Shown here: positions 1 through 50,381 of the stretch, one piece after another
Layout of the letters: the number at the start of each line of letters is the position of its first letter
How positions within the stretch are numbered: the first letter of the stretch is position 1
Assembly (NCBI RefSeq): GCF_020360975.1
Contig: NW_025408669.1
Span: forward strand, 4,402,001-4,466,000
Direction of reading: 5' to 3'
Length of the DNA: 64,000 nucleotides
From: Hirsutella rhossiliensis
Lineage: Eukaryota; Ascomycota; Sordariomycetes; Hypocreales; Ophiocordycipitaceae
Program-made: the position numbers and the translations under genes
The notes under the pieces: model-generated
What the model was told of the DNA's origin: nothing
What the model saw: only the letters and a program-made list of their open reading frames with translations
Databases searched by the model: none

Positions 1-1057
1 TTCTTGCAGGGTGGAACACCACTGCCGCTACATATGCGGTTGAGGTCAGCTTGCTATAGTAGTCGTTCAGCTTCTTCCATCCGAGCTTGATGTAAATCTT
101 CAAAACCCTGCGAGTTCTTGCGTCCATGTCATTGAACAGGTGAACCTCTTTCATGGTCTGATCTTCGTTCTCTTCGATTATAACTCCCTGAACTGCTAGT
201 TCGAGGTGGTCAAGGAGCATCTCTACCACCGGGAAGTACTCATCGAACCCTCCTGACGTGGAGCGTTTACCAGCAATACCCTCGCCCTGGAGTTGCTTCG
301 AGGCGATCTTGAATGGCTGAAGGATCTTCTGAACCGCAACAACGACCTTCCATTCTTCAAGGAAAGTTGTTCTTTCAGTATCGCTGGTTTGTCCTGTTCT
401 TTGCCGCCTTTGCCAAGCCATCGTTCCTCGATGATGGAAAACATCCTGTTCAAAGCCGTACGCTTCAGCAGAGCGCGTGAGGCCATCGCCTCATCGGATT
501 GCCAGCGAGTGCAGACGTTTTGAACCCACGTAAGAATAGGTTCAGTAGGAGCGGTTTGCCGTTGAGCTTCGTAAAGACCTCGAGAAGTTGACTGCTCGTT
601 CGAAGAGCAATGCCAATATTGTGAAGTTTGCCAAATGGCCCAAACTTGCGGTACTTGTCCACTTCTTCGCCATTGATGATGTCGGGCAGTACGTCCTGAT
701 CCTGACTGCCTTCTGGGACTGTTTCAACCTCGAATCCTTCTTCCATGCTCGGCACACAGAAGTCGTCGTCGGTCGCCAGCTCATTGATAGCGTCGGACAA
801 CTGGCGCTGCTCTTCCTCTTCAGCCACAAAGTCCTTATCGCCCCAATGAGCAAGCAACTCGTTGAAATTATCCCTTTGCTGCCGTACATCATAGCCCTGA
901 CGGCCAGGTTCAGAAAATGAGGGCGCAGCGGATGCGACGCTCTTCCCTGTCGAAATCGAACTCAGCGGCAAGCGCTTCCACAGCCGTATCATTATTCGTA
1001 GCGTTGTCAAGCGTGTAGTACCCGATTCTGACGCCGGATAACAGTCAAGATTGTCAG

Positions 1058-2065
1058 CTAACGGACCCAAGAAGTGTTGACTGTGGTTCTATACCTGTCT
1101 TCAAGACCAAACGCGCATATTGTATCTGCAACTTCATCTGCAAGCGCTGCTCCAGTATGGCGTTTCGCGAGAGCCGGCAAAGCCAAGAGGATTCCCCATT
1201 GGTTCCAATCTTGGTCGATAAAGTGGGCGTTGATACCGAGGAATGATGTGTTTTGTCGGGAAGTCCAGCCATCAAAGGTAAAATGAATCATACTTCTCGC
1301 TCTTTGAAGCAGCTCGCAAAGCGGACCAAGAGCGCGATTATACTCATCTAGTAGCAGATTCACAAGCGTTTTGCCAGTTGGTATCTGGCCTTCCTGGAGA
1401 GCCGGGTTGTTGTAGAGAAGGAGTCGTCTGAAGCGCTCAGAGTTTACGACATTAAAGGGGAGGTTATGATATGTAAGCCAGTCGAGCAGGAGCAGTTGAT
1501 TCATCTTCGGATCGAATAACGTATGCAGATTGCTGAGAAGAGTCTGATCTCGAGGGTTCGTCGGATCGGCGCGAAGCATATCAAGCAGGTTCCGTTCTGC
1601 ACCTCCACTCCCGGTAACTGAGCCTGCACGTTGTCTAGAAGGTGGCTGACAAGTTAGCGGGCATGATCGAACGACGTGGAGATGGGGTACGGAGAGGTGG
1701 CACAAACCACGACTTTGTGCTCCTTCCTCAGATGTCGGACGACGCTTCCCCCAGTCGAAGCGATGAAGACGTAATGTGCTGTCTTCGGCCTGTCCCGGAG
1801 GAAGCATCTCTCGCAGATCCATACGATCTTGTGGGGCCGTGACCTGTTGTCCTTCATTCTGAATCCGAATTGCCACCACCACGTCCGTTCTCGAGAAGGG
1901 TCGTGGCAAATCGTGAGCCGGGAACCGCCCAAATTTATCAGTCGTCCAAGCTTCATAATCTGGAAACCCCATGGGTGCATATTTAGTTGATGCTGAACTG
2001 GTTGTCGGCTCGGAAGGCGGCGGCGTGGAGGAGGCGATCTCTATGTCCTCATCAAGCGCGTCCAT
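1058..2065 (-). pseudogene. hAT-A transposase, left copy, N-terminal and central part
   Basis: This is the transposase of the left hAT-A copy. The frame starting at 2065 gives an acidic, Ser/Pro/Thr-rich N-terminus. The same frame resumes after an intron with a conserved hAT core (FTFDGWTSRQN, then a GINAHFID-like strand). A BED-type finger (two CxxC cysteines and an HxxxxH pair) is encoded between them in another frame, so the N-terminus needs an undetected intron or contains a frame error. After the core, an intron beginning GTATAG joins to the exon with the IGYYTLDNATNN motif. Homopolymer contractions at 921-923, 875-877, 572-574, 361-362 and 9-11 break the downstream frame relative to the other copy. 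Transposases of this family cut and paste the element through its terminal repeats. The C-terminal dimerisation region is outside the window. Confidence 0.85.
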
Positions 2066-2439
2066 GGTGGGAAACGTCCGTAAACAATGTGGGCGAGGTC
2101 AAATCGAAGGGTGCGAGGCTGATAAGGTCGAATCTGTATGAAGTCTACTCGGACAGGCTGAGGCCCGAAATAATTCCTGGTTGCGACGCGTACTGATTCC
2201 GTTGAACGGGAGGACTTGCAAACGCAAGAGACGGAGAGATCAATTTACTTTTGTCGACACGCGACGCGCGGCAACAAGATAGATATGACTGGCTGCCTGG
2301 GACCCCCGGTCGTTTGCCAGGGTGTTTGGCAGACGCGTCGGGCGGCAGCATCGTCACGCATCCAACCTACGCAGCCTACCCTGGACACCTTGTATGGACA
2401 TGGCGAACGACGATCAAATCGATCGATTGGAGGTTGGAT

Positions 2440-47541: not shown

Positions 47542-50230
47542 ATGGACGCGCTTGATGAGGACATAGAGATCGCCTCCTCCACGCCGCCGCCTTCCGAGCC
47601 GACAACCAGTTCAGCATCAACTAAATATGCACCCATGGGGTTTCCAGATTATGAAGCTTGGACGACTGATAAATTTGGGCGGTTCCCGGCTTCACGATTT
47701 GCCACGACCCTTCTCGAGAACGGACGTGGTGGTGGCAATTCGGATTCAGAATGAAGGACAACAGGTCACGGCCCCACAAGATCGTATGGATCTGCGAGAG
47801 ATGCTTCCTCCGGGACAGGCCGAAGACAGCACATTACGTCTTCATCGCTTCGACTGGGGGAAGCGTCGTCCGACATCTGAGGAAGGAGCACAAAGTCGTG
47901 GTTTGTGCCACCTCTCCGTACCCCATCTCCACGTCGTTCGATCATGCCCGCTAACTTGTCAGCCACCTTCTAGACAACGTGCAGGCTCAGTTACCGGGAG
48001 TGGAGGTGCAGAACGGAACCTGCTTGATATGCTTCGCGCCGATCCGACGAACCCTCGAGATCAGACTCTTCTCAGCAATCTGCATACGTTATTCGATCCG
48101 AAGATGAATCAACTGCTCCTGCTCGACTGGCTTACATATCATAACCTCCTTTAATGTCGTAAACTCTGAGCGCTTCAGACGACTCCTTCTCTACAACAAC
48201 CCGGCTCTCCAGGAAGGCCAGATACCAACTGGCAAAACGCTTGTGAATCTGCTACTAGATGAGTATAATCGCGCTCTTGGTCCGCTTTGCGAGCTGCTTC
48301 AAAGAGCGAGAAGTATGATTCATTTTACCTTTGATGGCTGGACTTCCCGACAAAACACATCATTCCTCGGTATCAACGCCCACTTTATCGACCAAGATTG
48401 GAACCAATGGGGAATCCTCTTGGCTTTGCCGGCTCTCGCGAAACGCCATACTGGAGCAGCGCTTGCAGATGAAGTTGCAGATACAATATGCGCGTTTGGT
48501 CTTGAAGACAGGTATAGAACCACAGTCAACACTTCTTGGGTCCGTTAGCTGACAATCTTGACTGTTATCCGGCGTCAGAATCGGGTACTACACGCTTGAC
48601 AACGCTACGAATAATGATACGGCTGTGGAAGCGCTTGCCGCTGAGTTCGATTTCGACAGGGAAGAGCGTCGCATCCGCTGCGCCCCTCATTTTCTGAACC
48701 TGGCCGTCAGGGCTATGATGTACGGCAGCAAAAGGGATAATTTCAACGAGTTGCTTGCTCATTGGGGCGATAAGGACTTTGTGGCTGAAGAGGAAGAGCA
48801 GCGCCAGTTGTCCGACGCTATCAATGAGCTGGCGACCGACGACGACTTCTGTGTGCCGAGCATGGAAGAAGGATTCGAGGTTGAAACAGTCCCAGAAGGC
48901 AGTCAGGATCAGGACGTACTGCCCGACATCATCAATGGCGAAGAAGTGGACAAGTACCGCAAGTTTGGGCCATTTGGCAAACTTCACAATATTGGCATTG
49001 CTCTTCGAACGAGCAGTCAACTTCTCGAGGTCTTTTACGAAGCTCAACGGCAAACCGCTCCTACTGAACCTATTCTTACGTGGGTTCAAAACGTCTGCAC
49101 TCGCTGGCAATCCGATGAGGCGATGGCCTCACGCGCTCTGCTGAAGCGTACGGCTTTGAACAGGATGTTTTCCATCATCGAGGAACGATGGCTTGGCAAA
49201 GGCGGCAAAGAACAGGACAAACCAGCGATACTGAAAGAACAACTTTCCCTTGAAGAATGGAAGGTCGTTGTTGCGGTTCAGAAGATCCTTCAGCCATTCA
49301 AGATCGCCTCGAAGCAACTCCAGGGCGAGGGTATTGCTGGTAAACGCTCCACGTCAGGAGGGTTCGATGAGTACTTCCGGTGGTAGAGATGCTCCTGACC
49401 ACCTCGAACTAGCAGTTCAGGGAGTTATAATCGAAGAGAACGAAGATCAGACCATGAAAGAGGTTCACCTGTTCAATGACATGGACGCAAGAACTCGCAG
49501 GGTTTTGAAGATTTACATCAAGCTCGGATGGAAGAAGCTGAACGACTACTATAGCAAGCTGACCTCAACCGCATATGTAGCGGCAGTGGTGTTCCACCCC
49601 TGCAAGAAGTGGCGCGCTCTGGAACGGCTTTGGAGCCAACTCCGTCTCGTCAGACGTCGGAGTGGGAAAGAACATATGCGAAGCTTAGCGACAGTCTGGA
49701 AAGAGAGGTACAAGAACATGGCTCATCGGCAATCCTGCGATGGTGTTTCAGCGGATACGACTAATAGTGGCTTGGACTATATTGAGCGTCGATTGGCGTT
49801 TAGTCGATCATTGGCTTGCCCTGAGCCTCGAGGGCGGCAAATTAAAGGACCAAAGCAGTCAACCGCCTTGCAAGAACAGGACGAGCTTGATCAGTACCTA
49901 TCAGAGCCGCCGGTGGAAAATATCGCATACAAAACGGACCCAATCGCTTGGTGGAAGGACGTTGGTGTTGCGCGGTTTCCTCGGCTGTCTTATATGGCTG
50001 TTGACTACCTTACCATCGCGTCGTCTTCAGCAGGAACGGAAAGAGATTTTAGCAGCTGTGGGAGGATGATAACACCACTGAGATCTCGCCTACGACGCCA
50101 TATTGTGGCGATGGCGCAGTGTCTTCGTTCCTGGAGTAAAGCTGGCATCTATCAGCCGACACTTCCTCTTGGTCTGCTTGAAGGGGACAATTGGAGGCAA
50201 GTTCTTCAACTGATGGGCAAGATCACCTAG
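47542..50230 (+). pseudogene. hAT-A transposase (frame interrupted; possibly intact in vivo)
   Basis: The protein consists of an acidic Ser/Pro/Thr-rich N-terminus (47542), a BED zinc finger (ICERC...HLRKEH, 47751-47900), the RNase H-like core (FTFDGW at about 48315; IGYYTLDNATNN after 48579), an insertion region, and the C-terminal dimerisation domain (LTIASSSAGTERDFSSCG, then SRLRRHIVAMAQCLRSW) ending at 50230. Two introns are supported by phase: 47901-47962 (CTAAC branch, phase 0) and 48512-48578. Relative to the left copy it has an extra T at 47691-47692 and lost bases near 48148, 49378 and 49396. The left copy has the longer form at the latter three. The N-terminus and the finger are in different frames in both copies, which remains unexplained. 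Confidence 0.88.
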
Positions 50231-50239
50231 ATAGGGATG

Positions 50240-50381
50240 ATTTTTAGTATTGATCGATTCGATCGTCGATCGATTCGAATCAAACAGCGATCGATCGATA
50301 TCGATCGATTGAAGGTGACGATCGATAAAATTCGATCGATCAGGCTCGAAAATCGATCTATAAGATCGATTTCCAACTCTG
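50240..50381 (+). repeat. hAT-A 3' subterminal ATCGAT array and terminal repeat
   Basis: About 140 bp with numerous ATCGAT and CGATCG words, mirroring the 5' end, and finishing in the terminal inverted repeat. Confidence 0.8.

Follow-up and report, generated by a model that had tools for sequence, protein, structure and literature searches.

The ten differences that separate the two copies of the transposon hAT-A in the 64,000-nucleotide stretch of the Hirsutella rhossiliensis genome analyzed here (the window) are, in our judgment, very probably not mutations but errors left in the consensus of a long-read assembly. Four sets of observations carry this conclusion: the pattern of the indels, their homoplasy among copies, a test of the reading frame against homologues and the contrast with genes outside repeats. 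The source assembly comprises 81.8 Mb in 40 contigs of what we take to be a nematode-parasitic (nematode-killing) ascomycete, and it is well supported that an assembly artefact of a known kind explains the finding without new biology. The hAT-A features of the window are the following.

47061..50381, + strand: right copy of hAT-A, 3,321 bp, with ends CAGGCTTGGAAA .. TTTCCAACTCTG, read directly from the sequence
47053..47060, no strand: TSD GTCATATC, 8 bp, left side of the right hAT-A copy, read directly from the sequence
50382..50389, no strand: TSD GTCATATC, 8 bp, right side of the right hAT-A copy
1..2545, - strand: left copy of hAT-A, inverted and cut by the window edge; the full copy (L015) has 3,320 bp
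2546..2553, no strand: TSD of the left hAT-A copy (L015), GATTCATC on the + strand and GATGAATC on the other strand
47396..49597, + strand: ten run-length differences of the right versus the left copy, at 47396, 47691, 48147, 48683, 48730, 49033, 49247, 49376, 49395 and 49597

The genome sequence shows that the left copy extends 775 bases past the window edge, and that it sits inside an element of a second hAT family, hAT-B. The right copy encodes a PF05699 hAT dimerisation domain (ORF 49250-50230, E 4e-20), and the CAG..CTG termini of the element carry short terminal inverted repeats, recognized by eye (CAGGCTTGGAAATCGATC vs CAGAGTTGGAAATCGATC). In its PF05699 domain, 8-bp TSD and CAG..CTG ends hAT-A resembles the fungal hAT (Ac-like) transposons annotated as 'putative AC transposase' in Fusarium and Metarhizium. 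About 360 bp past the right copy there is a 14-bp tandem repeat of 6.2 perfect copies (50742-50828).

The initial annotation had reported ten differences between the two copies, all in run length and with no substitution seen by eye. BLASTN of 1-2548 (reverse) against 47058-49608 gives 2,555 columns with 10 gap openings and 0 mismatches, so that the absence of substitutions holds base by base, and a global alignment places all ten differences at the reported sites, give or take a few bases. Together they amount to 11 bases, one of them being a two-base change. Compared over its full length (3,321 bp), the pair shows no substitution and 14 indels, which together make up 17 bases. The four that are additional come from outside the in-window part of the left copy, and two of them are two-base changes of GA. 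The description as run-length changes therefore stands for the ten original differences and fails for the element as a whole.

A search of the genome with a 2,551-base hAT-A query returned 45 matches, 16 of them covering almost the entire query. Twenty stretches were taken and 17 copies aligned, for a comparison of 56,010 aligned bases; the truncated copies L025, L027 and L028 were kept out of the alignment, L025 (5'-truncated) being nevertheless included in the TSD and frame checks and both L025 and L027 in the junction check. The 8-bp TSDs are identical in 16 of the 18 copies checked, the remaining two being truncated. Relative to the majority, the 17 aligned copies present 147 indels (120 deletions and 27 insertions) and 18 substituted cells, of which only five are isolated from gaps and junctions; one of the five is C to T, and no substitution is common to two of the aligned copies. 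The expectation that natural decay would leave substitutions, and RIP C-to-T changes, is thus at odds with what these copies contain, as the initial annotation had argued. Most of the indels (127/147) change runs of two or more; the other 20, of which a lone A missing in 6 of the 17 copies is an example, fall outside such runs and count against the artefact reading. Given the identical TSDs and the five isolated substitutions in 17 copies, the family is best regarded as a very young burst of near-identical elements.

Twenty indel sites in hAT-A are recurrent, with at least three copies in each state. All four combinations of states occur at 150 of the 190 pairs of such sites, where 159.3 ± 4.7 would be found under independence (states dealt randomly), and the mean r2 between sites (0.078, against a null of 0.064 ± 0.006) places linkage slightly above independence. 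Since the indels are distributed over the copies in a nearly independent manner, most recurrent hAT-A indels are not inherited, and a small number of the differences may be. For one pair of sites, at element positions 1624 and 2623, linkage is perfect in three copies (L009, L016 and L020), possibly a rare inherited difference. The events are also site-specific: all 41 in interior runs of three G or three C fall in 11 of 39 such runs, and this confinement to particular runs points to a systematic, not a random, error. Nanopore reads make site-specific systematic errors of this sort. Copy strand, tabulated against each indel site, shows no clear effect by eye.

The reading frame was assessed by matching codons to six transposases from other fungi and taking the spacing between the matched codons. 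Two of the 20 recurrent sites yielded no frame call, and at 17 of the 18 testable ones the longer state fits the homologues, the eighteenth sharing a flank with a neighbouring site; judged by these homologues, the short state is the wrong one at recurrent hAT-A sites. Counter to the trend, L013 has two single insertions in runs that fit at their majority length and become longer by them, which indicates that not every error is a deletion. Compared with three homologues, the majority hAT-A sequence has no frame breaks other than those at three variable sites and two intron-like gaps of ~65 bases, and it therefore contains no fixed frameshift in the homologous part tested. The earlier suggestion that the frameshifts may not exist is in keeping with both results. 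Over most of a 529-residue frame, identity to many annotated Fusarium/Metarhizium proteins is ~76-82%, and the long relatives of the transposase have 841-864 residues. Unlike the AC transposases of those genera, hAT-A presents no uninterrupted frame in any of the 17 aligned copies or in L025: against P0010, each of these 18 copies switches frame one to eight times, introns counted. We attribute the broken frames in part to the two introns and for the rest to errors. Many copies, if not most, probably have an unbroken transposase gene, and hence the element may be active now or have been so until recently.

Four ORFs of the window served as controls.

8247..10484, + strand: TYW1-like ORF, 745 aa, unbroken control outside repeats
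11913..13814, + strand: Exo84-like exon, 633 aa, with GT..AG intron borders at its end (by eye), after which the frame continues
35493..37556, - strand: CEF1/Cdc5-like ORF, 687 aa, unbroken control outside repeats
55585..57036, + strand: MFS transporter ORF, 483 aa, unbroken, with the frame open upstream too

At the hAT-A rates per run class, the 7,656 bases of these ORFs would be expected to hold 31.6 indels, and no internal frame break was found in any of the four. The claim that single-copy genes are intact is borne out to this extent, for four conserved, putatively single-copy ORFs outside repeats. The controls were picked among long ORFs by length and domain, a choice that favours intact ones; because as many as 31.6 indels are expected, we think that such a bias cannot explain the result. 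Intron-like borders were seen by eye at three apparent ORF ends in conserved genes (Exo84 near 13780, a second MFS gene near 33340 and a helicase near 6630), and the end of a DUF3112 ORF was uninformative.

Two further repeat families are represented in the window.

2549..3892, + strand: part of hAT-B, host of the left hAT-A copy, with PF05699 (E 1.3e-17) in ORF 2891-3733
40391..46118, + strand: LTR retrotransposon with 193-bp LTRs, RVT_1 and RNase H

The genome holds about 25 near-identical copies of hAT-B, three of them split, and ten stretches were compared with the window copy as reference. Inside the element, these ten add up to 17 indels and 14 substituted cells, one copy having no indel at all; the indel rate is lower than in hAT-A, and the weakness of the indel excess counts against the artefact reading. 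Ten of the 14 substituted cells are due to two substitutions that co-occur in five of the ten copies and look like the mark of a true subfamily, and copies from both substitution groups have a shortened C run at 1128-1131. At one spot the frame of hAT-B is broken by a state common to 10 of 11 copies (the window copy and nine others), and L037, which has an extra base there, reads through, an observation in favour of the artefact reading. The LTR element has at least 20 near-full copies of at least 99% identity in the genome, its own included, among the 24 of 318 candidates that were scored. Three of them differ from the window copy by 19, 16 and 17 indels versus 0, 11 and 3 substitutions, and all six pairs show the excess, with 15-19 indels versus 0-11 substitutions each. 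Run-length changes make up from 7/16 to 14/19 of the indels per pair, a share that counts against the artefact reading.

The distribution of indels near element ends and junctions is mixed. hAT-A is free of indels over the outermost 238 bp on the left and 156 bp on the right, where 4.07 affected runs would be expected given the run classes (P = 0.011, with limits set post hoc), and eight copies are longer at a site 157 bp in from the right end. The copy-specific junctions of L023, L025, L026 and L027 have no indel nearby, for an expected clean zone of ~150 bp and in few copies. Two observations count against the artefact reading here: L024 has an indel 6 bp from its 41-bp deletion junction, and the ends of the LTR element are not spared, since each pair has 1 to 5 indels in the terminal 250 bp.

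The likely course of events is that long reads would systematically miss bases in certain short runs, chiefly of G and C, and that short reads would probably have served to correct these errors in single-copy DNA. Where transposons are young and near-identical, the short reads would map to a copy already carrying the right run, and the wrong copies, receiving no reads, would stay wrong. Both the platform (long reads) and the polishing step are inferred. The initial annotation had proposed just such a long-read assembly with failed polishing in repeats, and the homoplasy, the frame test, the unbroken genes outside repeats and the indel excess of the LTR element support it. In the Polypolish paper, homopolymer-length errors are described as persisting in genomic repeats after short-read polishing, with other sequence accurate, and reads as going to the error-free repeat instance (PMC8812927). 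The hAT-A indels resemble the errors described there in lying in short runs and being concentrated in repeats; that description deals with bacterial genomes (PMC8812927), whereas here a fungal genome has families of about 17 to 25 near-identical copies each. The literature listings searched yielded no paper giving the sequencing method of this assembly, and one combined search yielded none joining transposase frameshifts, nanopore sequencing errors and fungal transposable elements. A second H. rhossiliensis contig set (9.7-14.5 Mb) was left out as an independent check because the same reads may underlie its proteins.

Among the alternatives, it is improbable that the indels are real and inherited, with subfamilies amplified after the loss or gain of bases. 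The slight excess of linkage, the one site pair perfectly linked in three copies and the subfamily-like pair of substitutions in hAT-B would agree with such a history, which is opposed by the near independence of sites, with all four combinations at 150 of 190 pairs, by the lack of any substitution common to two aligned hAT-A copies and by a homologous part without fixed frame break. For the bulk of the hAT-A sites, we reject subfamily descent on the four-gamete and linkage tests. Ordinary decay of old copies, through slippage or RIP, would account for the presence of frameshifts and for nothing further; near-identical copies with identical TSDs leave almost no time for it, and the ratio of 147 indels to 5 isolated substitutions argues against it, so that we reject this reading and give it practically no credence.

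A genome defence, a counterpart of RIP, might also make real small deletions in repeats, mostly at short runs and with hardly any point mutation, while sparing single-copy DNA. The indels are indeed found in repeats and absent from the control genes, they break frames and recur, and the spared ends of hAT-A would fit as well. We know of no repeat-directed frameshifting process of this kind and consider it very improbable in this case. The in-frame state survives in some copies at 17 of the 18 recurrent sites that could be tested, which polishing explains directly, and the pattern equals the artefact set out in the Polypolish paper (PMC8812927).

If the differences are consensus errors, as we favour, readers of the assembly would score as dead and frameshifted a set of young transposons, probably intact and possibly active until recently, and the dating of transposons or the scoring of their decay from indels in such assemblies would be misleading. 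The public protein records of H. rhossiliensis probably already bear the damage. Nine of these records were mapped to hAT-A copies, and eight of the nine are assembled from separated stretches, skipping more than the two introns; the exception, P0001, is not pieced together and matches the open frame of L018 at 100%. One of the eight, P0112, fuses a reverse-transcriptase part with pieces of hAT transposase, a fusion that is likely to be a gene-model artefact.
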